Positions 32,155-48,079 of a DNA stretch of 48,132 nucleotides are shown here, in pieces (the stretch's first letter is position 1; the number at the start of each line of letters is the position of its first letter). The stretch is from Rhodospirillaceae bacterium SYSU D60007. GTDB taxonomy: Bacteria > Pseudomonadota > Alphaproteobacteria > Reyranellales > Reyranellaceae. The notes beneath the pieces were generated by a model, which saw only the letters and a list, made by a program, of their open reading frames with translations, made no database searches and was not told the origin of the DNA. A program made the position numbers and the translations under genes. The stretch covers positions 1 to 48,132 of the forward strand of contig QOCQ01000031.1 in assembly GCA_003574685.1 (NCBI GenBank), written 5' to 3'.

Positions 32155-33336
32155 ATGCCCGGACCGCTGCACGGCTTTCGCATCCTCGACCTGAGCGCCG
32201 TGATCTCCGGCCCCTGGGGCACCATGATCCTTGCCGACCAGGGCGCCGACGTGATCAAGGTCGAGCCGCCCGGGCGCGGCGACTTCACACGCAGCGCCGG
32301 CAACCGAAGCGGCGGGCTTTCCGCCAGCTTTCTCAACAACAACCGCAACAAGCGCTCCATAGCGCTCGACCTGCGGCATCCCGATGGCATTGCCGTCATC
32401 AAGCGGTTGGCAAAGGGCTGCGACGTCTTCGTGCAGAACTTCCGCCCGGGCGTGGCCGAACGGCTGGGCATCGGCGAGGCGGCAATCCGCGAAGCCGCCC
32501 CCGATATCATCTATGTCTCGATCAGCGGCTTTGGCGAGAGTGGTCCGTTCGCGCACAAGCCGGTGTACGACCCGATCGTGCAGGCCCTCTCGGGACTGGC
32601 GTCAGTGCAGGGCGGTTCCGACACGGCCCGACCGCGTCTGGTGCGCACCATCCTGCCGGACAAGCTGACGGCGATCACGGCCGCGCAGGCCATCACCGCC
32701 GCGCTGCTGGCCCGCGCCCGCACCGGCGTGGGCCAGCACGTGCGGCTTTCCATGCTCGATGCCGTCGTGGCCTTCCTCTGGTCATCGGACATGGGCGGGC
32801 AGACCTATGTCGACCGCGAGGTCAGCGCCCAGCGCGCGGCCAGCTTCATCGACCTGATCTACCAGACGAAGGATGGCTATATCAGCGTCGCCGTCATGAC
32901 CGACGAGCAATGGGCCGCGTTGACCCGCGCCTTCGGCCGGCCGAAATGGCGGGACGATCCGCGTTTCGCCACCGCCGAGCTGCGCGACATCAATATCGAC
33001 GCACGCCTGGAGCTGATCCAGTCGGTGCTGGTCGAGCGCACCACCGATGACTGGATGCGAATCCTCGAAGCCGAAGGCGTGCCCTGTGCGCCGGTCCTGA
33101 CGCGCAGCCAGATGATTGCCCATCCGCAGATCGCCGCCAGCGGCATCGTGGTGGAGAACGAGCATCCACAGGCCGGCCGCCTGCGCCAGGCACGCACCGC
33201 GGCACGGTTCAGCGTCACGGCGCCCGAGCATCGCCGCGGCGCGCCGCTGCTGGGCGAGCACACGGTCGAGATCCTGCGCGAGGCCGGCTACACCGACGAC
33301 GAGATCGCGCGCCTGCGCGCGACCGCACTCGGTTAG
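32155..33336 (+). CDS. Class III acyl-CoA transferase (CaiB/BaiF family)
   Basis: The 393-residue protein moves a CoA group between carboxylic acids. It has the family start HGFRILDLSAVISGPWGTMI, then LADQGADVIKVEPP and FLNNNRNKRSIALDL, and the catalytic aspartate at residue 139 in PVYDPIVQALSGL. The C-terminal domain includes GVPCAPVLT near residue 310. CoA donor and acceptor are unknown. A second, diverged CaiB/BaiF gene is at 35257-36438, with an SDR gene and dinB between. The region has other acyl-CoA enzymes, suggesting breakdown of an organic acid. Confidence 0.92.
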   Translation: MPGPLHGFRILDLSAVISGPWGTMILADQGADVIKVEPPGRGDFTRSAGNRSGGLSASFLNNNRNKRSIALDLRHPDGIAVIKRLAKGCDVFVQNFRPGVAERLGIGEAAIREAAPDIIYVSISGFGESGPFAHKPVYDPIVQALSGLASVQGGSDTARPRLVRTILPDKLTAITAAQAITAALLARARTGVGQHVRLSMLDAVVAFLWSSDMGGQTYVDREVSAQRAASFIDLIYQTKDGYISVAVMTDEQWAALTRAFGRPKWRDDPRFATAELRDINIDARLELIQSVLVERTTDDWMRILEAEGVPCAPVLTRSQMIAHPQIAASGIVVENEHPQAGRLRQARTAARFSVTAPEHRRGAPLLGEHTVEILREAGYTDDEIARLRATALG

Positions 33337-33341
33337 GACTC

Positions 33342-34088
33342 CTACTGAATGCCGCCGTCGACCTGGATCACGGAGCCGGTGGTGAAGCCGGAATGCGGGC
33401 TGGCGAGATAGAGCGCGGCCGTCACGATCTCCTCCGGCTTGCCGCTGCGGTGCAGCGCCACGTCCTTGTTCTGCCGCGCCTCTTCCGTCCACGCCTTCGA
33501 AATGTCAGTGAGGAAGCGGCCGGGCATGATGCCGTTCACCCGCACCTTCGGCCCATACTCGAAAGCAAAGGCGGTGGTGATGGCGTTGAGCGCCGCCTTG
33601 GCGCCGGCATAGGGCGCAATGGAGGGACGTGGCCGGATGGCGCCGACGCTGCTGACATTGATGATGGAGCCACCGTCGCCCTGCGCCATGCGGCTGCCCA
33701 CCAGCGACATCAGGCGGAACGGGCCCTTGAAGTTCAGATGCACGACGCGGTCGAAGAGCTGCTCGCTGGTTTCCAGCGACGACGGCGCCAGCGGTGAGCT
33801 GCCGGCATTGTTGACGAGGATGTCGACCTTGCCGAAGGCGGCATAAGCAGCATCGACCAGGCCGGGCAGCTCGTCCCAGCGCGCGACATTGCACGCATAG
33901 GGCAGCGCCCGGCGGCCCATCGCCTCGATCGCCGCCGCCGCTTCCCTGCAGGACTCGATCTTGCGGCTGGTGATGACGATGTCCGCGCCACGCTCGGCGA
34001 AAGCCTTGGCCATCTCGAAGCCCATGCCGCGGCTGCCGCCCGTGATCAGCGCAACCTTGCCGGTGAAGTCGAACAGGCGATCGGTCAT
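33342..34088 (-). CDS. Short-chain dehydrogenase/reductase (SDR)
   Basis: The 248-residue protein is a classical SDR: cofactor motif TGGSRGMG at residues 16-23, NNAG near 90, the catalytic serine in INVSSVGA, and YAGAK near 158-162 with the active-site tyrosine and lysine. The C-terminus TTGSVIQVDGG is standard. An arginine in the first loop (SRGMG and SRKIES) suggests NADP(H) use, but this is a guess. It converges with the CoA-transferase gene five bases away. The substrate is unknown. Confidence 0.9.
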   Translation of the reverse strand: MTDRLFDFTGKVALITGGSRGMGFEMAKAFAERGADIVITSRKIESCREAAAAIEAMGRRALPYACNVARWDELPGLVDAAYAAFGKVDILVNNAGSSPLAPSSLETSEQLFDRVVHLNFKGPFRLMSLVGSRMAQGDGGSIINVSSVGAIRPRPSIAPYAGAKAALNAITTAFAFEYGPKVRVNGIMPGRFLTDISKAWTEEARQNKDVALHRSGKPEEIVTAALYLASPHSGFTTGSVIQVDGGIQ

Positions 34089-34172
34089 AATCTCTCCTCC
34101 GCGCTACCTTCCGCTGCGTCCGGCCGGGATCATAGACCAGGCGGCTGCCGGCGGTTTCCACCATGCAGTCCG

Positions 34173-35252
34173 ATGGCCGAGAAACAGGTCAGAAAGATCA
34201 TCCACCTCGACATGGATGCCTTCTATGCCTCAGTGGAGCAACGCGACAATCCCGAGCTGCGCGGCCGGCCGGTCGCCGTGGGCGGCTCGCACCGCGGCGT
34301 GGTGGCCGCCGCCAGTTACGAGGCACGGAAGTTCGGCGTGCGCTCCGCCATGCCCTCGGTCACTGCCCGGCGTAAATGCCCGGAGCTGGTCTTCGTGAAG
34401 CCGCGCTTCGAGATCTACAGGGAGATTTCCCGGCAGATCCGCGCCATCTTCGCCGAGTACACGCCGCTGATCGAGCCGCTGTCGCTCGACGAGGCGTATC
34501 TGGATGTCACGGTCAACCTGAAGAACATCGCGTCCGCCACCCGGATTGCCCAGGAGCTCCGCGAGCGGATCTTCGCCGAGACGCAGCTCACGGCCTCGGC
34601 CGGCATCTCCTACAACAAGTTCCTCGCCAAGCTCGCATCGGACCACAACAAGCCCAACGGGCAATACGTCATCACCCCGGCCATGGGTCCGGCCTTCGTC
34701 GAGGACCTGCCGGTGGGCAAGTTCCACGGCATCGGACCGGTCACCGCGGCAAAGATGAACCGGCTGGGCATCTTCACGGGCGCCGATCTCAGGCAGCAGA
34801 CGCCGGCTTTCCTGCAGCAGCATTTCGGCAAGGCCGGCCCCTGGTACCATGCCATTTCCCGCGGCATCGACGAGCGACCCGTCGTGCCGGACCGCCCGCG
34901 CAAGTCCGTGGGTTCGGAAACGACCTTCGCCGAGGATCTGGTGCAGTCCTCCGACATCGAAGCGGGCGTGAAGGCCATGCTCGATGACGTCTGGGCGTGG
35001 TGCGAGAAGACCGGAACGACCGGGCGCACCGTGACGCTGAAGGTGAAGTACGCCGACTTCCGCATCATCACCCGCAGCCACACCAGCCCCGCGCCCATTC
35101 TTCTGAAGCCCGCGGCCGAACGCATCTGCCTCGACCTCGTCCGCGCCATCCTGCCAACGGAAAAGCCGATCCGCCTGCTGGGCGTTTCTCTGTCCAACCT
35201 CAGCCAGACGGCTGCCATCCCGCCTGGACAACTGGCACTCAACCTCGCTTGA
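34173..35252 (+). CDS. dinB: DNA polymerase IV
   Basis: This Y-family polymerase carries out error-prone translesion synthesis. The 359-residue protein has catalytic acids Asp13 (HLDMDAFYASVEQ) and Asp106-Glu107 (SLDEAYLDVT), the palm and thumb helix-hairpin-helix region (LPVGKFHGIGPVTAAKMNRLG), and a little-finger domain. It ends in QLALNLA, which resembles the C-terminal beta-clamp-binding pentapeptide of Pol IV. No LexA-type operator is evident upstream. The gene is set among metabolic genes with no visible operon partners. Confidence 0.95.
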   Translation: MAEKQVRKIIHLDMDAFYASVEQRDNPELRGRPVAVGGSHRGVVAAASYEARKFGVRSAMPSVTARRKCPELVFVKPRFEIYREISRQIRAIFAEYTPLIEPLSLDEAYLDVTVNLKNIASATRIAQELRERIFAETQLTASAGISYNKFLAKLASDHNKPNGQYVITPAMGPAFVEDLPVGKFHGIGPVTAAKMNRLGIFTGADLRQQTPAFLQQHFGKAGPWYHAISRGIDERPVVPDRPRKSVGSETTFAEDLVQSSDIEAGVKAMLDDVWAWCEKTGTTGRTVTLKVKYADFRIITRSHTSPAPILLKPAAERICLDLVRAILPTEKPIRLLGVSLSNLSQTAAIPPGQLALNLA

Positions 35253-35256
35253 CGCT

Positions 35257-36438
35257 TCACACCACGCCGCGCTGGCGCAGGTCGGCGATGGCCGAGTCGG
35301 CATAGCCCAGGCCGCTCAGGATAGCGTCGGTGTGCTGGCCCAGCTCGGGTGTGGCGCGCAGTGCTGCGGGCTGCGGCGCGGCGCTCATGTTGATCGGCTG
35401 GCCCACGGCCCTGATCTCGCCCAGCACCGGATGGCTGACCGGCCGGGCGATGCCGAGGTGCTGCACCTGCGGTTCGGCGAAGGTCTGGTCGATGCTGTTG
35501 ATCGGGCCGCACGGCACGCCGGCCTTGTTCAGCGCCGCGATCCAGTGCGCCGCCGGCTGCGTGCGGGTGATCGCCGCGATGCGCTCGTTCAGCGCCTTGC
35601 GGTTGCGCGAGCGCTGCGCGCCGGTGGCGTAGTCGGGATCCGCCAGCAACTCCTGCGCTGCGATGGCCTCGCAGAAGCGCTTCCACAGCCCGTCGCCCGA
35701 CGCCGCAATGTTGATATGCCCGTCCGCCGTGGGGAACACGCCGGTCGGAATACCGGTGGGGTGATCATTGCCGGCCTGCGGCGCGACCTCGCCTGCCATC
35801 AGCCAGCGCGCTGCCTGGAAATCGAGCATGAAGATCTGCGCCTCCAGCAGTGACGTGTGAACCCACTGACCGGTGCCGATCCGCTCGCGCTGCAACAGCG
35901 CCATCATGATGCCCTGCGCCAGCAGCAGGCCCGAGGTCAGGTCGGCGATCGGGATGCCCACGCGCATTGGCCCCTGCCCCGGCGCGCCGGTGATCGACAT
36001 CAGCCCGCCCATGCCCTGCGCGATCTGGTCGACGCCGGGTCGCGTCGCGTCAGGTCCGGTCTGTCCAAAGCCGGAGATGCTGCCGTAGATGATGCGCGGA
36101 TTGACCGCCCTCACCGACTCGTAGTCCACGCCCAGCCGGTACTTCACGTCGGAACGGTAGTTCTCGACCACCACGTCGGCACGCGCGGCGAGCTTCATGA
36201 AGATGGCGCGCCCCTCCTCGCTCTTGAGGTTCAGCGTCATGGCGCGCTTGTTGCGGTGCAGGTTCTGGAAGTCGAAGCCGTGGCGGCGGCTGCCGGTCGC
36301 GTCGGCCACCTCCGGGCCGGGCTGCTCGATCTTGATGACGTCGGCGCCCCAGTCGGCAAGCTGGCGCGCGGCGGTGGGTCCGGCACGATGCGCCGTCAGG
36401 TCGAGCACCGAAATGTGTTGCAGCGGCAGGCTACCCAT
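35257..36438 (-). CDS. Class III acyl-CoA transferase (CaiB/BaiF family), second copy
   Basis: The 393-residue protein shares the fold of the CaiB/BaiF gene at 32155: LQHISVLDLTAHRAGPTAAR at the start, LADWGADVIKIEQPGPE, NLHRNKRAMTLNL, and the catalytic aspartate at residue 137 in RPGVDQIAQGMGGL. The two are clearly diverged, so they probably act on different acids. The start at 36438 (MGSLPLQHIS) gives the standard N-terminus. It is divergent from the PhyH gene, and the 106 bases between must hold both promoters. Confidence 0.92.
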   Translation of the reverse strand: MGSLPLQHISVLDLTAHRAGPTAARQLADWGADVIKIEQPGPEVADATGSRRHGFDFQNLHRNKRAMTLNLKSEEGRAIFMKLAARADVVVENYRSDVKYRLGVDYESVRAVNPRIIYGSISGFGQTGPDATRPGVDQIAQGMGGLMSITGAPGQGPMRVGIPIADLTSGLLLAQGIMMALLQRERIGTGQWVHTSLLEAQIFMLDFQAARWLMAGEVAPQAGNDHPTGIPTGVFPTADGHINIAASGDGLWKRFCEAIAAQELLADPDYATGAQRSRNRKALNERIAAITRTQPAAHWIAALNKAGVPCGPINSIDQTFAEPQVQHLGIARPVSHPVLGEIRAVGQPINMSAAPQPAALRATPELGQHTDAILSGLGYADSAIADLRQRGVV

Positions 36439-36544
36439 TGTCACTTCCCTTGGAATGGTCCGCGCACGCACTATACACCAGCGGTGGACCAGGTTGACGG
36501 CATGCGGATGGCGCTCCTAGTGTCGCGTCGAAAAGGACAGCGCG

Positions 36545-37378
36545 ATGCCGAAACTCCTGTCAGATGAAGCGGTCGCCCGCTACCGGCGGGACGGCTATCT
36601 GTTTCCGGTCGATGTGATCGCGCCTGCCGAAGCGGCTGAGCTGCGCCGCCGGCTGGAGGACCACGAGGCGCAGACCGGCGGCCCCATCAGCGGCGACCGG
36701 CGCCACAAGGCGCATCTCTATCTCACCTGGCTGAACGAGCTGATCCGCCACCCGCGCATCCTGGACGCCGTCGAGGACGTGCTGGGCCGCGACCTGCTGT
36801 GCTGGAGCACCAGCTTCTTCATCAAGGAAGCCTCCGATCCGGGCTTCGTCTCGTGGCACCAGGATGCCACCTACTGGGGCCTGAGTTCGCCTGATGTGAT
36901 GACCGTCTGGGTCGCCTTCACGCCCGCCAATCTCGTGAACGGCTGCATGAAGTTCCTGCCGGGTTCCCACCGGCAACAGCTCGATCATCGCGACACCTTC
37001 GACAAGCACAACCTGTTGAGCCGCGGCCAGGAGATCGCCGTCACCGTCGATGAGGCCAAAGGCGTGCCGGCCGTCCTCGAGCCGGGCCAGGCGTCATTGC
37101 ATCACGTGCTGCTGGCGCACGGCTCGGCGCCGAACCGCTCCGGCGACCGGCGCATCGGCTTTGCCATCCGCTACATCCCGACGCACGTCCGGCAGGTCGT
37201 GGGCGAACGCGACAGCGCCACGCTGGTGCGCGGCACCGATAACTTCCATCACTTCGACCACGAGCCGCGGCCTGCGGCCGACTGCGCGCCTGACGCACTC
37301 GCCGCCCACGCCGCCATCGTCGGCCGCCAGGTGCAGGTCCTCTACCGCGGCACCGGCCACGACCATTTCCGCCCGTAA
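36545..37378 (+). CDS. Phytanoyl-CoA dioxygenase (PhyH) family protein
   Basis: The 277-residue protein is a non-haem Fe(II)/2-oxoglutarate oxygenase. The iron triad is visible: His105 and Asp107 in VSWHQDATYW, and His192 in LLAHGSAPN, with an arginine at about 203 for 2-oxoglutarate. MKFLPGSHRQQ near 135-145 is also typical. PhyH proteins hydroxylate branched acyl-CoA or diverse small molecules; the substrate is unknown. The SDR gene follows after 26 bases, so the two may hydroxylate and then oxidise the same molecule. Confidence 0.9.
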   Translation: MPKLLSDEAVARYRRDGYLFPVDVIAPAEAAELRRRLEDHEAQTGGPISGDRRHKAHLYLTWLNELIRHPRILDAVEDVLGRDLLCWSTSFFIKEASDPGFVSWHQDATYWGLSSPDVMTVWVAFTPANLVNGCMKFLPGSHRQQLDHRDTFDKHNLLSRGQEIAVTVDEAKGVPAVLEPGQASLHHVLLAHGSAPNRSGDRRIGFAIRYIPTHVRQVVGERDSATLVRGTDNFHHFDHEPRPAADCAPDALAAHAAIVGRQVQVLYRGTGHDHFRP

Positions 37379-37404
37379 GGCCGACCATCACGCAGGAGGA
37401 AGGC

Positions 37405-38160
37405 ATGCGTCTGAAGGACAAGGTTGCGCTGGTCACCGGCGCCGCCAACGGCATGGGTGCCGCGACGGCGAAGCTGTTCGCGCGCGAGGGCGCGAAGGCG
37501 GTGGTCGTGGCCGATGTTCTCGATGCGCCGGGCAAGAACGTCGTTGCCGCCATCGAAAAAGAAGGCGGACACGCGACGTACCAGCACCTTGACGTTACCA
37601 GCGAGGACGAGTGGAAGGCCGCCATCGACAAGGTGCTGGCCACCTGGGGCCGGCTCGACGTGCTGGTCAACAATGCCGGCATCAGCGGCTCGGCGGCCGA
37701 GGATCTGTTCGCCACCGACGCCTGGGACAAGCTGATGGCGATCAACGCGCGCGGCGTCTTCCTCGGCACCAAGTACGCGGTGGCAGCGATGCGCCAGTCG
37801 GGCGGCGGCTCGATCGTCAACCTGTCCTCCGTCTCCGGCATCGTCGGCCAGCAGGGCGTCCATGTCGGCTACAACGCTTCGAAAGCCGCGGTGCGGTTGC
37901 TGAGCAAGACCATCGCCGTGCAGCACGGGCGCGATCGCATCCGGGTTAATTCCGTGCATCCCGGACTGATGCCACCCATGATCACCTCGGGCCGCACCGC
38001 CGATCCCGAGACGCGCGCGAAGATGCTGAAGAGCGTGCCGCTGGGCCGCGCCGGCGAAGTCGACGAGGTGGCGTACGCCGTCCTGTTCCTCGCGTCCGAC
38101 GAATCGTCCTACGTCACCGGCACCGAGATCGTCGTCGACGGCGGCTGGACGGCCGCGTAG
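37405..38160 (+). CDS. Short-chain dehydrogenase/reductase (SDR), second
   Basis: This 251-residue classical SDR has cofactor motif TGAANGMG (residues 11-18), NNAG near 90, serine in VNLSSVSGIVG, and catalytic YNASK. An aspartate at the end of the second strand (VVVADVLDAPG) favours NAD(H). GGAGGA lies just before the start. It is the second gene of a PhyH-SDR unit, so the alcohol made by PhyH might be its substrate (inference). A family A repeat follows the stop. Confidence 0.9.
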   Translation: MRLKDKVALVTGAANGMGAATAKLFAREGAKAVVVADVLDAPGKNVVAAIEKEGGHATYQHLDVTSEDEWKAAIDKVLATWGRLDVLVNNAGISGSAAEDLFATDAWDKLMAINARGVFLGTKYAVAAMRQSGGGSIVNLSSVSGIVGQQGVHVGYNASKAAVRLLSKTIAVQHGRDRIRVNSVHPGLMPPMITSGRTADPETRAKMLKSVPLGRAGEVDEVAYAVLFLASDESSYVTGTEIVVDGGWTAA

Positions 38161-38173
38161 CAAGGTAAGTGGC

Positions 38174-38281
38174 CTTCATGGTGAGCCTGTCGAACCATGA
38201 AGGCGTCGCAGAGCGCGGTGCGGGTCGCTTCATGGTTCGACCCGGTGGATGCGAAAGCATCCACCTGTGCTCACCATGAAG
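38174..38281. repeat. Repeat family A, copy 2, with inserted hairpin
   Basis: The left arm is 38174-38202. The right arm runs 38228-38281 but is split in the middle by a small hairpin, GGTGGATGC/GCATCCACC. Copy 3 at 41282 has the same insertion, while copy 1 at 6678 does not. It fills the gap between the SDR gene and the convergent DUF35 gene. Confidence 0.85.
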
Positions 38282-38285
38282 CTGT

Positions 38286-38735
38286 CTATCGCCCGCTATA
38301 TCGCCACTGCACCAGGGTGAAGGGTGGCTTTGCGTCGTCGTGCGGTTCGAAGACGGCCTCGACCTCGGCGCCGATGCGCACGTCCTGGCGCGGATCGCCC
38401 AGCAGGTTGCCCAGCATGCGGATGCCGCCGGCCTGCGGCAGCTCGACCAGTACGACGATGTAGGGGCCCTGCTCCTTCAGCGCGGGATGCGCTGGATGCC
38501 ACGGCCGCTCCCAGCTATAGATGCGGCCACGGCCTTCGATCGTCTGCCAGCCGATGTCGAAGGACAGGCATTTGTGGCAGATCCATTCCGGACCCCACTG
38601 CCAGGTGCCGCAGGCCTTGCAGCGCTGCACGCGCAACTCGCCGCGGCGCGTGCCTTCCCAGTACGGCGCATCGAGCCCGTCATTCTCCGGCACCGGCACG
38701 GGCAGGCCGGGGCGCAGATAGGTCGCGGCCGTCAT
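38286..38735 (-). CDS. DUF35 (OB-fold/zinc-ribbon) acyl-CoA-associated protein
   Basis: The 149-residue protein has a rubredoxin-like zinc ribbon with four cysteines, QRCKACG and ICHKC (residues about 37-58), followed by an OB-fold (GRIYSWERPWHPAHP onwards). These proteins bind to and enable thiolase-like enzymes, for example in steroid side-chain aldolases and acetone carboxylation pathways. The start at 38735 overlaps the stop of the thiolase-like gene by four bases (ATGA), so the two almost certainly form a complex. Confidence 0.88.
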   Translation of the reverse strand: MTAATYLRPGLPVPVPENDGLDAPYWEGTRRGELRVQRCKACGTWQWGPEWICHKCLSFDIGWQTIEGRGRIYSWERPWHPAHPALKEQGPYIVVLVELPQAGGIRMLGNLLGDPRQDVRIGAEVEAVFEPHDDAKPPFTLVQWRYSGR

Positions 38736-39916
38736 TGCAGGGTCTCCGCGCTGCCCAGGATCATGCTCGATACCGGCGTCACCATCGGGCCCGAGATCAC
38801 CATGGAGACATGCGCATCGGGCACCTGTGCCGTGGACTCGCCGCGCAACTGGCGCACGGCCTCGACCTGCAGCTCCAGCCCGTGCATGTAGCACTCCGCC
38901 AGGTTGCCGCCGCTGGTGTTGAGCGGCAGCCGGCCCGACGGCGCGAGCAGGTTCTCCGGCACGAGGAACGCATTGGCCTCTTCGGCCGCGAAGAAACCGT
39001 GCTCGACCAGACTCATCAGCACGCCGCCGGTGAAGTTCTCATAGCTTTGCAGCACATCGACATCGGCCGGTTTCAGACCGGCCATGGCATAGAGATTCGG
39101 TGCCACGGTGGTGAAGCTCGACGTGGCGTAGAGCGGCGCGTTGTGCACGCGTGCGGCGTTGCGATGCTCCGATCCCTGCGCTGCCGCCAGCAGGTAGGCC
39201 GGCTTTTTCGGGAAATCGCGTGCCCGTTCGGCCGGCACCAGGATCAGCGCCGCAGCGCCATCATTCTCCTGGCAGCAGTCGAAGAGCCGCCACGGTTCGA
39301 CGATCCAGCGTGAGGCGTCGTAGGCCTCCTCGTTCAGCGGCTTGCCATACATCACCGCGCGCGGGTTGCGCTGCGCATGGTGGTACGAGGCGAGTGCAAT
39401 CGCCCGCTGGGCACTGGGCGCGATGCGGTTCTCATGAATGAACCGCATGGCGCGCATGGCGTAGCGCTGCGCCGGCGACATCACGCCGTAGGGCGCGTTG
39501 AATGCCGGCTCGCCCGATACCGTGCCGCCCGGCGGCGCGGCGCCGAAACGCTGGAACTGGCCCTGTGCCAGCGCACGAAACACCACGACGCAATCGGCCA
39601 TGCCGCAGGCGACGGCTGCCGCGGCGTTGGCGACCGCGCCGGAGCCGCCGCCGCCCCCGCCACCCCACTGCATGTTGGAGAAGCGCAGCTCGGGCAGGCC
39701 CAGCGCGGCGGCCAGCCGCGAGGGATCGTTGCGATCGTTGCTGTAGGAGGCGAAGCCGTCGATGCGCCGCGGCTCGATGCCGGCATCGGCACAGGCGGCA
39801 AGGACCGCCTTCAGCGCCAGCTTGAACTCGGGATCAGGCGACTTGCCGTGCCTGTAGTAGGTCGTCTCGCCGATGCCGACGATCGCCACCTTGCCGCGCA
39901 GCGTGCGTCCGCTCAT
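38732..39916 (-). CDS. Thiolase-like protein (Ltp2/SCPx type), nucleophilic cysteine apparently missing
   Basis: The 394-residue protein has the thiolase fold of the lipid-transfer/SCPx group. Where thiolases carry the acylated cysteine it has a run of seven glycines then SG (residues 85-93), and near the C-terminus the motif is NTSGGNLAECYMHG, the pattern of Ltp2-like proteins, in place of the usual GHPxGxSG. This fits an aldolase or acyl-CoA lyase that needs a DUF35 partner, which is encoded next to it. The start at 39916 overlaps the end of the amidohydrolase gene. The frame is open further upstream, but only as a shadow of that gene. Confidence 0.85.
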   Translation of the reverse strand: MSGRTLRGKVAIVGIGETTYYRHGKSPDPEFKLALKAVLAACADAGIEPRRIDGFASYSNDRNDPSRLAAALGLPELRFSNMQWGGGGGGGSGAVANAAAAVACGMADCVVVFRALAQGQFQRFGAAPPGGTVSGEPAFNAPYGVMSPAQRYAMRAMRFIHENRIAPSAQRAIALASYHHAQRNPRAVMYGKPLNEEAYDASRWIVEPWRLFDCCQENDGAAALILVPAERARDFPKKPAYLLAAAQGSEHRNAARVHNAPLYATSSFTTVAPNLYAMAGLKPADVDVLQSYENFTGGVLMSLVEHGFFAAEEANAFLVPENLLAPSGRLPLNTSGGNLAECYMHGLELQVEAVRQLRGESTAQVPDAHVSMVISGPMVTPVSSMILGSAETLQ

Positions 39917-41112
39917 TGAGCGTACCGGGCCGGCACGGCGAGCTTCAGGAAGCGCGCGGCGTTGAGGCCCAGAATATTCGCGCGGCTGGCATCCGATAGG
40001 TGACCCATGGTGCGTTCGATCGCCTCCGCCGAGTGCGGCCACGTGCCCTCGTGGTGCGGGTAGTCGTTGGCCCACATGAAGTTGCCGGCGAGCCCATGCG
40101 ACTCGGCAAGATCCAGACCGGCCTGGTCTTCCTGGAACGACGAGAAACCGCGTGTCCGGTAGTAGTCGCTGGGCAGGCCCTGCAGCTTCGGTCGCACCCA
40201 GAAATGGTGCTTGCGGTAGGCCTCGTCCATCGCATCCAGTAGCCACGGTACCCACCCGATGCCGGCCTCGATGGTGGCAAAGCGCAGACCCGGGAAGCGC
40301 TCCAGCACGCCCGAGGCGCAGAGATTGGCCACCGGCTCGATGGTCGGTGACAGCGAATGCGAGACGTAGTTCACCACCGCCCCGCCATTGCCGCGTGCGG
40401 CGCGCGGATCGCGCCCGGTCGAAACGTGGAAGGTGATCGGCAGGTCGGCATCCTGGATCGCCGCCCACAGCTGGTCGAAATGCGGCAGGTTGTAGTTGAC
40501 GTGATCGACATCGTGCGCGCCCCACACCGGCTTGCACGGCAGGGTGAGACAGCGGAAGCCAAGCTTCGCCAGCCGCTGCACCTCGGCGATCGAGCCCTCG
40601 AGGTCGCCGGTGGCAATCGCACCGGCAATGATGATGCGGTCCTTGTGCGACCCGAACATCTCCCACGCCCAGTCGTTCCACACGCGGCACTGCGCCATCG
40701 CGAACTCGGGATCGGGCGTGGCCCACATCGCCAGCCCCTTGTTGGGAAACATCAGCTCGACGTCGATGCCATCGCGGTCGTGATCGGCAATGCGGCCGGC
40801 GGCGTCGGCACCGGACTTGTTGCGCAGCGCGTCCTCGCCTTCCAGCGTCGACAGCCGCAGCCGGTCGGGGCGATAGCCCTCGGACACCCGCCACTGCACC
40901 CCGTCCTTGTCGGTGATCACGCGCGGCAGGCGCTGGTGATACTTTTTGTCCATGCGCGTCAGCCACAGATCAACGGGCTCGTTGGCGTGGCAGTCGGCCG
41001 ACACCATGAAGTACTTGCGCGCCGCATCCGGCCGCGCCGTGCGCGTCCAGCCGGTGCTGCCCGGGGTTTGCAGACGCCAGCGATTGGGCTCGTTCACCAC
41101 GATCTGGTTCAT
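39913..41112 (-). CDS. Amidohydrolase family 2 metal-dependent hydrolase/decarboxylase
   Basis: The 399-residue protein has a TIM barrel of the amidohydrolase-2 (ACMSD-like) group: metal motif D40-C-H42 in VSADCHANEP, a histidine in PITFHVSTGRD, and the final metal aspartate in MWANDYPHHEGTWPHS. Members hydrolyse C-C or C-N bonds or decarboxylate aromatic acids. The start at 41112 has GAGGAGGAAGCG upstream. It is the first gene of an operon with the thiolase-like and DUF35 genes, all overlapping by four bases, which suggests a joint pathway. Confidence 0.88.
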   Translation of the reverse strand: MNQIVVNEPNRWRLQTPGSTGWTRTARPDAARKYFMVSADCHANEPVDLWLTRMDKKYHQRLPRVITDKDGVQWRVSEGYRPDRLRLSTLEGEDALRNKSGADAAGRIADHDRDGIDVELMFPNKGLAMWATPDPEFAMAQCRVWNDWAWEMFGSHKDRIIIAGAIATGDLEGSIAEVQRLAKLGFRCLTLPCKPVWGAHDVDHVNYNLPHFDQLWAAIQDADLPITFHVSTGRDPRAARGNGGAVVNYVSHSLSPTIEPVANLCASGVLERFPGLRFATIEAGIGWVPWLLDAMDEAYRKHHFWVRPKLQGLPSDYYRTRGFSSFQEDQAGLDLAESHGLAGNFMWANDYPHHEGTWPHSAEAIERTMGHLSDASRANILGLNAARFLKLAVPARYAQ

Positions 41113-41281
41113 CGCTTCCTCCTCGCCTCGCAGCAGGCAGCCTGCCCCATCCGCCCGCGCCGTCCATAGCGCCGCAAGCATGCGAGCCCTGCAAGGCTGC
41201 GGCACATCTGTCCGCAGTGCGGAAACATCGCCTTGAGCAGCCCCGCCGGTCCTGCGCACCATCGTACCACGCTGCTATAGC

Positions 41282-41383
41282 CTTCATGGTGAGCCTGTCG
41301 AACCATGAAGGCGTCGCACAGCACGGCCGGCTTCATGGTTCGACCCGGTGGATGCAAGGCATCCACCTGTGCTCACCATGAAG
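41282..41383. repeat. Repeat family A, copy 3, with inserted hairpin
   Basis: The left arm is 41282-41310 and the split right arm 41331-41383. The insertion GGTGGATGC/GCATCCACC matches copy 2. The 292-base gap between the divergent amidohydrolase and LLM genes is mostly this element, which lies close to the LLM ribosome site. Confidence 0.85.
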
Positions 41384-41404
41384 CAATCCCAGCGGGAGGC
41401 AATG

Positions 41405-42253
41405 ATGAAGATCGGCGCGGCGATGTTCTTTACGGACTACTCCATGGCGCCCGCTGAGCTGGCGCAGGCGCTGGAGGCGCGCGGCTTCGAATCGGTGTGG
41501 GCGCCCGAGCACTCGCACATTCCGCTATCGCGCAAGTCGCCCTTCCCGCAGGGCGGCGAGCTGCCCAAGCCCTATTACGACGTGATGGACCCGTTCGTGT
41601 CGCTGACCGCCGCGGCGGCCGTCACCACGACACTGCGCCTCGGCACCGGCGTCTGCCTCGTGGTGCAGCGCGATCCCATTCAGACCGCCAAGCTGGTGGC
41701 CTCCATCGACCAGGTCTCGCAGGGCCGGTTCCTGTTCGGTGTCGGCAATGGCTGGAACGCAGAGGAGATGGCCGACCACGGCACCGCCTTCGAGACGCGG
41801 CACAAGCTCGCCCGCGAACGCATCGAGGCGATGAAGGCCATCTGGACGCAATCCAAACCTGAATATCATGGTGCGTTCGTGAACTTCGATCCGATGATGA
41901 CCTGGCCCAAGCCGGTGCAGAAGCCGCATCCGCCGGTGATCGTCGGCGGTGCGTTTCCCTGGGCCGCGCGTCGTGCGCTGCGCTACGGCAACGGCTGGCT
42001 GCCGCATCGCGCGCGCAAGCAATATCCCGACGTCGCCGCCCTGCTGCCGCAGTTCCGGCAGATGGCGGCGGAAGCCGGCCGCGACCTTGCCTCGGTGCCG
42101 GTGAGCATCTGGGGCGCCAAAGACGCCGACCAGCTCAAACGCGATCGCGACGGGGGCGTCGAGCGGGTGATCATCCAGCTCGAAACCGCGAAGGCAGACG
42201 CCGTGCTGCCCGTGCTTGATCGCTGGGCCAAGATCATTCCGACGGTTTCGTAG
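41405..42253 (+). CDS. LLM-class (F420-dependent) oxidoreductase
   Basis: The 282-residue luciferase-like protein has a TIM barrel with LEARGFESVWAPEHSHIP near residue 25, LRLGTGVCLVVQRDPIQTAK near 80 and RFLFGVGNGWNAEEMADHG near 105. These are marks of F420-type LLM enzymes rather than FMN alkane monooxygenases. GGGAGG five bases before the ATG at 41405 decides this start over 41402. It overlaps htpG tail to tail by 20 bases. F420 use is supported by the FO synthase gene at 45362; the substrate is unknown. Confidence 0.88.
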   Translation: MKIGAAMFFTDYSMAPAELAQALEARGFESVWAPEHSHIPLSRKSPFPQGGELPKPYYDVMDPFVSLTAAAAVTTTLRLGTGVCLVVQRDPIQTAKLVASIDQVSQGRFLFGVGNGWNAEEMADHGTAFETRHKLARERIEAMKAIWTQSKPEYHGAFVNFDPMMTWPKPVQKPHPPVIVGGAFPWAARRALRYGNGWLPHRARKQYPDVAALLPQFRQMAAEAGRDLASVPVSIWGAKDADQLKRDRDGGVERVIIQLETAKADAVLPVLDRWAKIIPTVS

Positions 42254-44357: not shown

Positions 44358-45311
44358 CTACATTTTCGCCAGTATCTCGCTGCGGAACTTCTGCATGTTC
44401 TGAAGCACGGCTTCGGCGGTGGCGCCGGCGAAGCCGAAATCGACGCTGGCCACGCCGATATCGCGCAGGGTGCGCAGGTCGCCGGCGATGTCCGCGGCGC
44501 TGCCCGAGAACAGGTGCCGCTCGCCGTCGCCGGCCTTCGCCGGCACACCCTCGCCATAGCGCGACACGCGCAGCGCGATGCCCACCTTCTGCGGATCGCG
44601 ACCGGCCTCCTGCGTGAGCTTGCGCAGGCGCGCGATGCCGGCGCGGAAGCGCGAGAGACTGTCGAGCGGAAAGGCGGGGTTGGTGCCGATCGGATACCAG
44701 GCATCGCCCAGCCGCGCCGTGCGCCGCAGCGCCGGGCCGCTCTCGCCGCCCACCCAGATCGGCGGATACGGCTTCTGCACCGGCTTGGGTTCCATCTTGA
44801 TGCCGCTGAAGCGCACGTGCTCGCCGGCGAAGCGCGGATCGGCGCTGGTCCACAATTCCCGGAAGGCGGCCAGGTACTCGTCTGTGACCTTGCCGCGGGC
44901 CGCGAAGTCGGGCGCGCCGATGGCCTGGAACTCCTCCTGCATCCAGCCGGCGCCGATGCCCACCGTGAGCCGGCCGCCCGAGAGCACATCGATGGTCGCA
45001 AGGATCTTGGCCGTCAGCACGGCCGGGCGGTGCGGCACCACCATCACCGACGTAACCAGCCGCAGCCGCCTTGTCTTCGCGGCGAGATACGCCACCTCGG
45101 TCAATTGCTCGTGACGATCGAAGGTGCCGCCACCGGGAAACTCGCCCGTGGCGCTGTAGGGATACTTCGCCTCGATGTCGGTGGGAATCACCACGTGGTC
45201 GCTGAACGTGGCGTAGTCGAAGCCCATGGCCTCGCCCTCAACCACAATGCGGGTGAGGATTTCCGGCGCTGCCAGCGGGCCCGCCGTCGGCGCGTTGAAG
45301 CCGATCTGCAT
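44358..45311 (-). CDS. LLM-class F420-dependent oxidoreductase, second
   Basis: The 317-residue protein resembles actinobacterial F420-dependent LLM enzymes: EGEAMGFDYATFSDHVVIP near residue 30, LATIDVLSGGRLTVGIGAGW near 120, and EPKPVQKPYPPIWVGGESG near 180. It is divergent from the FO synthase gene with 50 bases between the starts, so the enzyme and its cofactor pathway may share control. The start at 45311 has GAAGGAGAG upstream. Substrate unknown; FMN use cannot be excluded. Confidence 0.9.
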   Translation of the reverse strand: MQIGFNAPTAGPLAAPEILTRIVVEGEAMGFDYATFSDHVVIPTDIEAKYPYSATGEFPGGGTFDRHEQLTEVAYLAAKTRRLRLVTSVMVVPHRPAVLTAKILATIDVLSGGRLTVGIGAGWMQEEFQAIGAPDFAARGKVTDEYLAAFRELWTSADPRFAGEHVRFSGIKMEPKPVQKPYPPIWVGGESGPALRRTARLGDAWYPIGTNPAFPLDSLSRFRAGIARLRKLTQEAGRDPQKVGIALRVSRYGEGVPAKAGDGERHLFSGSAADIAGDLRTLRDIGVASVDFGFAGATAEAVLQNMQKFRSEILAKM

Positions 45312-45361
45312 TGCGCTCTCCTTCGATTGCGTCCGGCCGGGCGATGCTACACGATGGGGCG

Positions 45362-47731
45362 ATGGACGAGTCACAATTTCCCCCGATCGAGCGCCTGGAA
45401 CAGATGCCCTTGCCCGCGCTGCTGGCCGCAGCATCGGCCATGCGCGACCGTGGCCATGGCCGGCTGATCTCCTACTCGCGCAAGGTCTTCATTCCGCTGA
45501 CCCGGCTGTGCCGCGATGTGTGCCACTACTGCACCTTCGCGACTCGCCCGCACGCCTCGCGTCCCGCCTTCCTGTCGCCCGAAGAAGTGCTGGCCATCGC
45601 CAAAGCGGGCGCGGCGGCGGGCTGTACCGAGGCGCTGTTCACGCTGGGCGACAAGCCCGAGCTGCGCTACCGGGCGGCGCGCGAGGCGCTGGCGGCGCTG
45701 GGGCACGAGACCACCATCGGCTATCTGCGCGACATGTGCGCGCTGGTCCTGCGCGAAACCGGACTGCTGCCGCACGCCAATCCCGGCGTGATGACGCGCG
45801 AGGAGATCGCGGCGCTGCGCGAGGTGACGGCGAGCCAGGGCATCATGCTGGAGTCGACCAGCACGCGGTTGTGCGAACCCGGTGGCGTGCATTACGGCTC
45901 GCCGGACAAGCAGCCGGCCGTGCGGCTGGAAACGATCCGGCTGGCCGGCGAACTGCGCGTGCCGTTCACGACAGGCATCCTGATCGGCATCGGCGAGACG
46001 CGCGCCGAGCGGCTCGAGGCGCTGGTGGCGATCCGCGATTTGCACGCGCGCTACGGCCACATTCAGGAAGTGATCGTCCAGAACTTCCGCGCCAAGCCCG
46101 ACACCAGGCGGGCCGATGCGCCGGAGCCGGATCTGGATGACCTGCTGTGGACCATCGCGGTGGCGCGCCTGGTGCTGGGCCCCGACATGAACCTGCAGGC
46201 ACCGCCAAATCTGTCGCCGGGCGTATACCAGCGGCTGGTCGCGGCCGGGCTGAACGACTGGGGTGGCGTCTCGCCGGTGACGCCCGACCACGTCAATCCC
46301 GAAGCGCCGTGGCCCGCGATCGCGGAGCTCGCCCAACGCACCGCCGAGACCGGCAAGGTGCTGGTGAACCGCCTGCCGGTGTACCCCGCCTGGGTGCGCA
46401 ACCCCGATACGTGGCTCGCACCCGAAGTGGCGACGCGCGTACGGCGGATGAGCGACGCTGAAGGCTTCGCGCGTGACGACGACTGGGCTCCGGGCACGCT
46501 GGAGCCGCCACCGCCGGCGCCGGTCCTGCTGCCCGCCGTGGATGGCGAGCTGCGCCGCAGCGTGGCGCGCGCCGAGGCGGGCGAGCGGCTTGGTACGGAG
46601 GAAATCGTCCGGCTGTTCGCCGCGCGCGATGCCGACTACCGGCACGTCATCGCGGCCGCCGATGCGCTGCGCCGCGCCACCAGCGGCGAGGTCGTGCGCT
46701 ACGTGGTGAACCGCAACATCAATTACACCAACATCTGCTATTTCCGTTGCCGCTTCTGCGCCTTCTCCAAGGGCCGCACGCATGATGATTTGCGCGGCGC
46801 GCCCTATGACCTGGCGCTGGAGGAGGTGAGCCGCCGCACGGCCGAGGCCTGGGCGCGCGGCGCCACCGAGGTCTGCCTGCAAGGCGGCATCCATCCCGAT
46901 TACACGGGCGAGACCTATGTCGCGATCTGCCGCGCCATCAAGGCGGCAGTACCCGACATGCACATCCATGCCTTTTCCCCGCTGGAGGTGACGCAGGGTG
47001 CCGCCACGCTGGGGCTGTCGCTCAGCGACTTCCTGGCGCGGCTGAAGGCGGAAGGGCTGGGGACGCTGCCCGGCACGGCCGCAGAGATCCTCGATGATGA
47101 GGTGCGCGCCATCATCTGCCCCGACAAGGTGAACACGGCGCAGTGGCTCGAGGTGGTGCGCGCCGCCCATGCGCTGGGCCTGCGCACGACCTCGACCATC
47201 ATGTATGGCCACGTCGAGACGCCGCTTTCCTGGGCGCGCCATTTGCTGGCACTGCGTGACCTTCAGGCCGAGACCGGCGGCTTCACCGAGTTCGTCCCCC
47301 TGCCCTTCGTGCACATGGAGGCGCCAATCTACCGGCACGGGCGCGCCCGCCGTGGCCCGACCTTCCGCGAGGCCGTGCTGATGCACGCCGTCGGCCGGCT
47401 GGTGCTGCACCCGCATATCACCAACATCCAGACCTCCTGGGTGAAGATGGGCCCGGCCGGCGCCGCGATCTGCCTGCAATCCGGCGCCAACGATCTGGGC
47501 GGCACGCTGATGAACGAGAGCATCTCGCGCGCCGCCGGCACCCAGCACGGCCAGGAGTTTCCGCCGGCCGAGATGGAAGCGCTGATCCGCTCCATCGGCC
47601 GCACGCCGCGCCAGCGCGACACCCTCTACCGCCCCGTCCCCGAAGAACGCCGCACCACCTCCTTCGCCGCCACCGAGCTCGCCCCCATCATCCTGACTCC
47701 ACCCCGCAAAAGGGCAGTTGAGACAGTTTGA
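45362..47731 (+). CDS. cofGH: Bifunctional FO synthase (CofG-CofH fusion; FbiC type)
   Basis: This 789-residue radical SAM protein makes FO, the deazaflavin of coenzyme F420, from tyrosine and a pyrimidine of riboflavin biosynthesis. It has two radical SAM halves: the CofG part with cysteines 50, 54 and 57 (CRDVCHYC), and the CofH part with cysteines 459, 463 and 466 (CYFRCRFC). The tail QSGANDLGGTLMNESISRAAG is diagnostic of CofH. The fusion is usual in actinobacteria and less so in proteobacteria. No other F420 genes (cofC, cofD, cofE) lie in the window. The stop lies inside the start of the tandem repeat. Confidence 0.94.
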   Translation: MDESQFPPIERLEQMPLPALLAAASAMRDRGHGRLISYSRKVFIPLTRLCRDVCHYCTFATRPHASRPAFLSPEEVLAIAKAGAAAGCTEALFTLGDKPELRYRAAREALAALGHETTIGYLRDMCALVLRETGLLPHANPGVMTREEIAALREVTASQGIMLESTSTRLCEPGGVHYGSPDKQPAVRLETIRLAGELRVPFTTGILIGIGETRAERLEALVAIRDLHARYGHIQEVIVQNFRAKPDTRRADAPEPDLDDLLWTIAVARLVLGPDMNLQAPPNLSPGVYQRLVAAGLNDWGGVSPVTPDHVNPEAPWPAIAELAQRTAETGKVLVNRLPVYPAWVRNPDTWLAPEVATRVRRMSDAEGFARDDDWAPGTLEPPPPAPVLLPAVDGELRRSVARAEAGERLGTEEIVRLFAARDADYRHVIAAADALRRATSGEVVRYVVNRNINYTNICYFRCRFCAFSKGRTHDDLRGAPYDLALEEVSRRTAEAWARGATEVCLQGGIHPDYTGETYVAICRAIKAAVPDMHIHAFSPLEVTQGAATLGLSLSDFLARLKAEGLGTLPGTAAEILDDEVRAIICPDKVNTAQWLEVVRAAHALGLRTTSTIMYGHVETPLSWARHLLALRDLQAETGGFTEFVPLPFVHMEAPIYRHGRARRGPTFREAVLMHAVGRLVLHPHITNIQTSWVKMGPAGAAICLQSGANDLGGTLMNESISRAAGTQHGQEFPPAEMEALIRSIGRTPRQRDTLYRPVPEERRTTSFAATELAPIILTPPRKRAVETV

Positions 47732-47934
47732 GACAGGTAGACAGGCCGATTTGAGACAGGTGGAGACAGTAGACAGGTGGAGACAGGTAGACAGGTGGAG
47801 ACAGGTAGACAGGCGTGGACAGGTGGGGACAAGTAGACATGCCATTGGAGACAGTCGGAGACAGGTAGACACGCCGTCTGAGACAGTCGGAGACAGGTAG
47901 ACACGCCGTCTGAGACAGTCGGAGACAGGTAGAC
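47717..47934. repeat. Purine-rich tandem repeat (minisatellite)
   Basis: The plus strand is built of GAGACAGGTAGACAG-type units. Positions 47717-47838 hold irregular copies of an 18-base unit (GTGGAGACAGGTAGACAG). Positions 47839-47934 hold three 32-base units (47839-47870, 47871-47902, 47903-47934), the last two identical, ending AGACAGGTAGAC. It begins inside the last codons of the FO synthase gene. It is neither a CRISPR nor obviously protein-coding. Confidence 0.92.
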
Positions 47935-48079
47935 ATGGCAACGGAACAGTTCCCGTCATCCCGAGCGCCAGCGAGGGATTTCCCGCGCATGACGAGCCTG
48001 CTCTCGCAACCGGCAGAGGTGCCGTCGCGAGAAGTGTTGGAATTGGGGTGGCGGTCACCGGCGGATTGAAGGTATCGGT
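47935..48079. other. Gap with a dispersed GTCATCCCGAGCG-type element
   Basis: The first part (about 47954-47983) reads CGTCATCCCGAGCGCCAGCG and continues GAGGGATTTCC, a sequence pattern often seen between genes in many bacterial genomes. No gene is visible in the remainder. Confidence 0.4.

Follow-up and report, generated by a model that had tools for sequence, protein, structure and literature searches.

The question raised by this locus is whether a gene for a fused synthase of FO, the chromophore of the rare redox cofactor F420, residing in an alphaproteobacterium next to genes for LLM-class oxidoreductases (LLM), belongs to a pathway leading to F420, and whether it has been acquired together with enzymes using this cofactor. 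The window, i.e., the whole stretch of DNA that was analysed, is the entire contig C25 (48,132 bases) of a 5.34-Mb genome assembled in 58 contigs and 99.8% complete. An earlier note on this DNA had claimed a gene of the F420 pathway in a probable alphaproteobacterium, coding for a fused CofG–CofH protein with both radical SAM sites intact, a divergent LLM gene 50 bases away, and another LLM gene nearby. We regard it as very probable that the gene belongs to an F420 module combining synthesis, recharging, and client enzymes, which is old in the Reyranellaceae, has been lost or replaced there several times, and has been passed to Bradyrhizobium. The features of the window are collected in Table 1.

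Table 1. Position of the FO synthase gene, its parts, and the adjacent LLM genes in the window
Feature	Position	Strand	Remarks
cofGH, fused FO synthase	45362..47731	+	open frame and profile matches
CofG half of CofGH			residues ~37-360
CofH half of CofGH			residues ~412-759
CofG-half radical SAM site CRDVCHYC	45509..45532	+	residues 50-57
CofH-half radical SAM site CYFRCRFC	46736..46759	+	residues 459-466
Divergent intergenic region LLM1/cofGH	45312..45361		50 bases, with the LLM1 ribosome-binding site
LLM1, TIGR03619 LLM-class oxidoreductase	44358..45311	-	probable F420H2 client
LLM2, TIGR03619 LLM-class oxidoreductase	41402..42253	+	probable F420H2 client; start uncertain, 41348-41402

The fusion is borne out by profile matches well above anything attributable to chance: CofGH of the window reaches 1169.2 bits with the bifunctional CofGH model NF006687 (cut-off 1018), 502 bits with the CofG model TIGR03550 (cut-off 213.35), and 577.9 bits with the CofH model TIGR03551 (cut-off 374.1). 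The CxxxCxxC motif is preserved at both radical SAM sites, and two such sites are found in 89/89 aligned CofGH rows. An in-frame ATG at 45344 could place the cofGH start 18 bases earlier. CofGH is encoded once in the genome, and its nearest relatives come from alphaproteobacterial MAGs, one at 86% and several titled Reyranella at 82–83%; the nearest named relatives thus lie in the Reyranella family, in agreement with the assignment of the pathway gene to an alphaproteobacterium. The neighbourhood is likewise as claimed, since the ATG of LLM1 at 45311, preceded by a good ribosome-binding site (AAGGAGAG), leaves a gap of exactly 50 bases, and the end of LLM2 is separated by 2.1 kb from LLM1 and by 3.1 kb from CofGH, htpG lying in between.

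Two further traits of the window are worth mentioning. The region close to LLM2 (32155–41262) codes for two family III CoA-transferases, two short-chain dehydrogenases, a phytanoyl-CoA dioxygenase, and an amidohydrolase, and resembles a catabolic island. A minisatellite with the core GAGACAGG/TAGACAGG (47731–47935) starts at the cofGH stop codon, about 200–400 bases before the contig end, and in genome G074 the contig also ends just past cofGH. The minisatellite was considered as a link between C25 and C21, the contig discussed below, as the orientation would allow the end of C25 to be joined to the start of C21; it was discarded, since the repeat core GAGACAG is clustered neither within the initial 19 kb of C21 nor on the two G074 contigs.

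The genes for the subsequent steps, cofC, cofD, and cofE, are all located on contig C21 of the same genome, in a run read from one strand (<cofC <cofD <cofE <FGD <LLM3), and score 122.3, 299.5, and 272.1 bits, respectively, each over its equivalog cut-off. The situation in which the genome holds no other F420 genes, named in the earlier note as one that would speak against its reading, therefore does not occur. The fourth gene of the run passes the TIGR03554 equivalog (FGD, 485.3 bits against 420) and the fifth, LLM3, passes TIGR03620 (283 bits, cut-off 219.8). The nearest solved structures to FGD are the FGD enzymes of M. tuberculosis (460 bits) and R. jostii (451 bits), both matched over nearly the full length, and the residues which we take to form the FGD1 active site, His40, Trp44, Glu109, Lys198, Lys259, and Arg283, are all kept in the alignment. 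The other reducing enzyme sought, Fno (TIGR01915), finds in this genome a best match of 21.5 bits against a cut-off of 149.8.

The kind of F420 formed can be predicted from CofC. Its best solved relative is 7P97, an enzyme of Mycetohabitans using 3-phosphoglycerate (3-PG), and this proximity was the reason to consider 3PG-F420. According to a passage of PMC8764529, Ser162 of the Mycetohabitans CofC is the residue diagnostic for 3-PG. CofC encoded on C21 has Gly at that position, on which ground 3PG-F420 was rejected, and in a set of 89 CofC sequences that includes near-copies neither Ser nor Thr occurs there (0/89; 70 Gly, 14 Ala, 4 Asp, and 1 Asn), the metal-binding aspartates being kept in 89/89. 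This points to ordinary F420 derived from 2-phospholactate or phosphoenolpyruvate (PEP) as the predicted product. CofE is a single-domain protein of 255 aa, in view of which the PEP route may be one step short, that of the dehydro-F420 reductase.

The module would work as follows. The CofH half of the synthase would join tyrosine to 5-amino-6-ribitylamino-uracil and the CofG half would close the deazaflavin ring, both by radical SAM chemistry of the kind that is established for proteins of this family. CofC would activate a three-carbon phospho-acid, predicted to be 2-phospholactate or phosphoenolpyruvate, with GTP, CofD would join the activated phospho-acid to FO, and CofE would add glutamates to give F420. 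FGD would then reduce F420 with glucose-6-phosphate, and the resulting F420H2 would most likely serve LLM1, LLM2, LLM3, and other LLM proteins of the genome in the reduction of organic substrates. One could argue that CofGH is a remnant serving nothing, or that it makes FO for a light-repair enzyme with no F420 formed. We find this scarcely credible, since the genome has cofC, cofD, cofE, and FGD, each with its family intact, and they occur together with CofGH in 55 of the 76 genomes compared.

Five markers were sought in one set of 76 genomes from the order. CofGH has a match in 57 of them (over the cut-off in 47), cofD in 57, and FGD in 56, while the LLM1- and LLM2-types, sought at E 1e-60 with paralogues counted in, are each found in 59. 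All five markers occur together in 55 genomes and none in 16; the remaining five are mixed. One of these, G001, belongs to another family and has CofGH and cofD without FGD or either LLM type. Three are 77 to 84% complete: G025 (78%) has everything except CofGH, G060 (84%) is without cofD and FGD, and G038 (77%) has the LLM types only, with LLM1 at the edge of its contig, just before the expected place of CofGH. The fifth, G022, belongs to the same family as the window, is 99% complete, and holds the LLM types with no CofGH, cofD, or FGD, a state due perhaps to a recent loss or to cofactor scavenging. Its best LLM1- and LLM2-type paralogues are at 59% and 60%, and its 37 LLM stretches place it between the F420-positive and F420-negative groups.

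CofGH is found in 4/4 genomes of the window genus and in members of five of the six genera. On an rpoB tree of 49 genomes (25 of the 76 had no match at E 1e-100, and G045, in three fragments, and G042, an odd row, were left out of the other 51), six changes of the F420 state are required, of which four or more fall on well-supported branches. These were at first read as six losses; this reading was given up, as the CofGH tree (built without L016, L028, and L045, which are too short or contain a stop) has two distant types of the protein, so that some of the changes may be gains or replacements. One F420-positive genome, G029, stands inside an otherwise F420-negative clade, placed there by a 39%-filled rpoB fragment, with contamination possible.

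The arrangement of the genes was compared among named loci, in stretches of unequal length and with queries from the window genome only. The window CofGH group comprises 15 loci (L003–L016 and L063) from Reyranella, three Bradyrhizobium records, and MAGs titled Acetobacteraceae or Alphaproteobacteria. LLM1 (≥60%) adjoins CofGH in all 15, with LLM2 beyond it in eight, and cofC, cofD, cofE, and FGD face CofGH in all seven loci whose stretch reaches cofD, LLM3 coming next in several. The facing layout <LLM1 CofGH> <cofC <cofD <cofE <FGD thus recurs in the Reyranella family and in Bradyrhizobium. In 38 of the remaining 65 named loci, cofE and cofD directly precede CofGH and are read the same way; FGD was seen in two of the 65 and LLM1 (≥60%) in one. 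In L209 (5847–7079, G075) and L210 (9877–10698, G073) a gene for an MmyB-like (MLTR) HTH protein is situated between cofC and cofGH; it is a possible regulator of the F420 module. It should also be noted that L033, a MAG titled Klebsiella pneumoniae, has a CofGH grouping with those of environmental Gammaproteobacteria; the record is probably mistitled.

When six proteins were joined for a tree, the three copies from Bradyrhizobium (L007 from a named strain, L008 and L011 from MAGs) fell inside the Reyranellaceae, next to genus g2 (100/100), and the AU test rejects a clade of the Reyranellaceae rows alone at p 9e-9, for a group chosen after the tree had been seen. This nesting indicates that the module does move laterally between lineages. 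Bradyrhizobium jicamae PAC68 (L061) has a CofGH of a type different from that of L007, L008, and L011. The distant second type of CofGH occurs in a part of the sister genus g4 (G007, G037, G050, and G053), which by the CofGH tree holds a second F420 gene set, so that either a replacement or a separate gain has evidently happened there. In the corresponding loci (L214, L213, L208, and L207) the distant CofGH adjoins cofD in the same direction and LLM1 is located elsewhere.

The tree of CofGH proposed in the earlier note, with its two distant types and the Bradyrhizobium copies within the Reyranellaceae clade, also bears on the suggestion made there that the synthase had been acquired with its client enzymes. 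A part of the suggestion stands, as the module has moved together with FGD and LLM genes (the nesting in Bradyrhizobium and the second type in g4). For the window lineage itself no donor came to light, and with the presence of CofGH throughout the genus and in most genera of the order the module looks inherited, inheritance within the family being the simpler reading. A recent gain of the whole module from outside the order could be defended by this mobility, by the second type in the sister genus, and by the occurrence of CofGH on 50 of 72,556 plasmid records, 12 of them from Sinorhizobium. We consider it highly improbable, given the distribution just described and the grouping of the window copy with its own genus (96/97).

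The cofactor of the two LLM proteins of the window calls for separate consideration, a clustering of these proteins with FMN-dependent enzymes being the other result named in the earlier note as speaking against its reading. Both pass TIGR03619 (cut-off 166.9), LLM1 with 239.7 and LLM2 with 268.1 bits. By sequence profile, the nearest solved relative of LLM1 is SfnG, an FMN enzyme (116.5 bits, against 70.6 bits for the F420 enzyme Mer); for LLM2 the monooxygenase 7BIP (69 bits) comes first and the F420 enzyme 9FP4 (62 bits) second. The nearest solved sequences, mixed and in the case of LLM1 leaning to FMN, were for this reason set aside as a guide to the cofactor. The fold is not decisive either, FMN and F420 enzymes both standing near the top: with the AlphaFold model of LLM1 (mean pLDDT 84.7, residues 41–63 unreliable), Foldseek ranks FMN enzymes first, while in a second structure aligner MsuD (FMN, Z 29.7) ties with Mer (Z 28.9).

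The pathway and FGD could thus be real and LLM1 and LLM2 nonetheless be monooxygenases that depend on FMN and just happen to accompany the F420 genes, a possibility for which the profile and Foldseek proximity of LLM1 to SfnG and MsuD and the rank of 7BIP for LLM2 speak. However, Mer ties with MsuD in the second structure comparison, LLM1 orthologues occur along with CofGH also where the genes are unlinked (e.g., in G053, G050, and G007), both LLM types are absent from the 16 pathway-free genomes, and both proteins are members of TIGR03619; FMN dependence of the two is on this evidence rather unlikely. The gene order, the joint absence from the 16 genomes, and the TIGR03619 membership together suggest that LLM1 and LLM2 probably use F420, which we hold with somewhat less confidence than the existence of the module.

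The relation between F420 and LLM proteins extends to the whole repertoire. The genome of the window has 55 LLM stretches (54 at E 1e-10), a stretch not always being a gene, as two of the 55 share one frame; 11 of them lie within 65 kb of contig C34 (83447–148649), some side by side. Of the 30 that score best, 17 exceed the cut-off of an NCBIfam family with F420-dependent in its name, one exceeds that of an FMN family, and 12 exceed none; such names are mostly inferred from co-occurrence. In 22 near-complete genomes hand-picked from the 76, the median number of LLM stretches is 57 (range 48 to at least 63, four genomes standing at this lower bound) in the 11 F420-positive ones and 25 (21–37) in the 11 F420-negative ones. 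Loose first-look counts, which were taken because scoring had covered 25 stretches per genome, and which ignore kinship and leave three genomes out, gave medians of 73 in the 57 CofGH-positive genomes and 36 in the 16 all-negative ones. With kinship controlled, F420 and the LLM1-type could be compared in four independent pairs, of which 3.5 agree and none is opposed (p 0.125), and F420 and a high LLM count in only two, both agreeing; the types A and B used in the pair comparison were hand-assigned from the coordinates of CofGH, LLM1-type, and cofD, G025 being put in B without a CofGH, and the type-B CofGH is represented on the tree by four genomes only. The pairs are consistent with an association of F420 and LLM genes and too few to serve as its proof.

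A bolder reading is that LLM2, LLM1, CofGH, CofC, CofD, CofE, FGD, and LLM3 make up a self-contained, laterally mobile F420 plug-in that unites synthesis, recharging, and the first clients, and whose gain or loss determines how large the LLM repertoire of the Reyranellaceae is. We put it forward tentatively, as a proposition with slightly less than an even chance of holding. If it holds, roughly half of the 50–60 LLM genes would persist only where F420 is made, and related genomes with and without the module could serve as a natural screen for non-actinobacterial enzymes that depend on F420.

F420 in Alphaproteobacteria is, on the strength of passages in PMC8498797 and PMC8407117, already published, and the phenomenon in general is known. 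The former reports, in the part relevant here, detection of trace amounts of F420 in two Alphaproteobacteria, with a role called minor or niche-specific, and predicts Fgd and Fno for this class; the latter, likewise in an excerpt, associates the fbi operon of S. meliloti with nodule competitiveness. A search of PubMed Central, covering CC0, CC BY, and CC BY-SA articles, returned no paper pairing Reyranella with F420 or luciferase-like monooxygenase, or Bradyrhizobium with F420 and luciferase-like, so the family-level picture of F420 in the Reyranellaceae may be unreported so far. Having the whole pathway, an FGD of their own, and in one genome some 54 LLM stretches, next to close relatives that lack the pathway, the Reyranellaceae offer a useful natural experiment at the family level. 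It makes testable outside mycobacteria which LLM enzymes truly use F420, as well as whether F420 and its users spread together as one package.

The module can finally be compared with known systems. CofGH of the window corresponds to FbiC, also a CofG–CofH fusion with two radical SAM sites, but in the window clade it adjoins LLM1 and faces cofC–cofD–cofE–FGD. The FGD matches mycobacterial FGD1 (3B4Y) over nearly its full length and exceeds the TIGR03554 cut-off; unlike FGD1, it is the product of an alphaproteobacterial gene run that also contains cofE, cofD, and cofC. Other Proteobacteria, i.e., Oligotropha, Paracoccus, and Sinorhizobium meliloti with its fbi operon, also have CofGH, CofC, CofD, and CofE, as stated in passages of PMC8498797 and PMC8407117, whereas in the window clade the two halves of the set face each other, FGD and LLM genes are included, and no Fno exceeds the cut-off. 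The abundance of LLM genes has its counterpart in F420-producing Mycobacterium, where, according to a section of PMC5300114 citing earlier work, F420 genes go with many LLM genes, and for M. smegmatis a passage of PMC8498797 gives 45 predicted LLHT; the expansion described here differs in having been observed inside a single family of Alphaproteobacteria, for which related genomes without the F420 genes are at hand for comparison.
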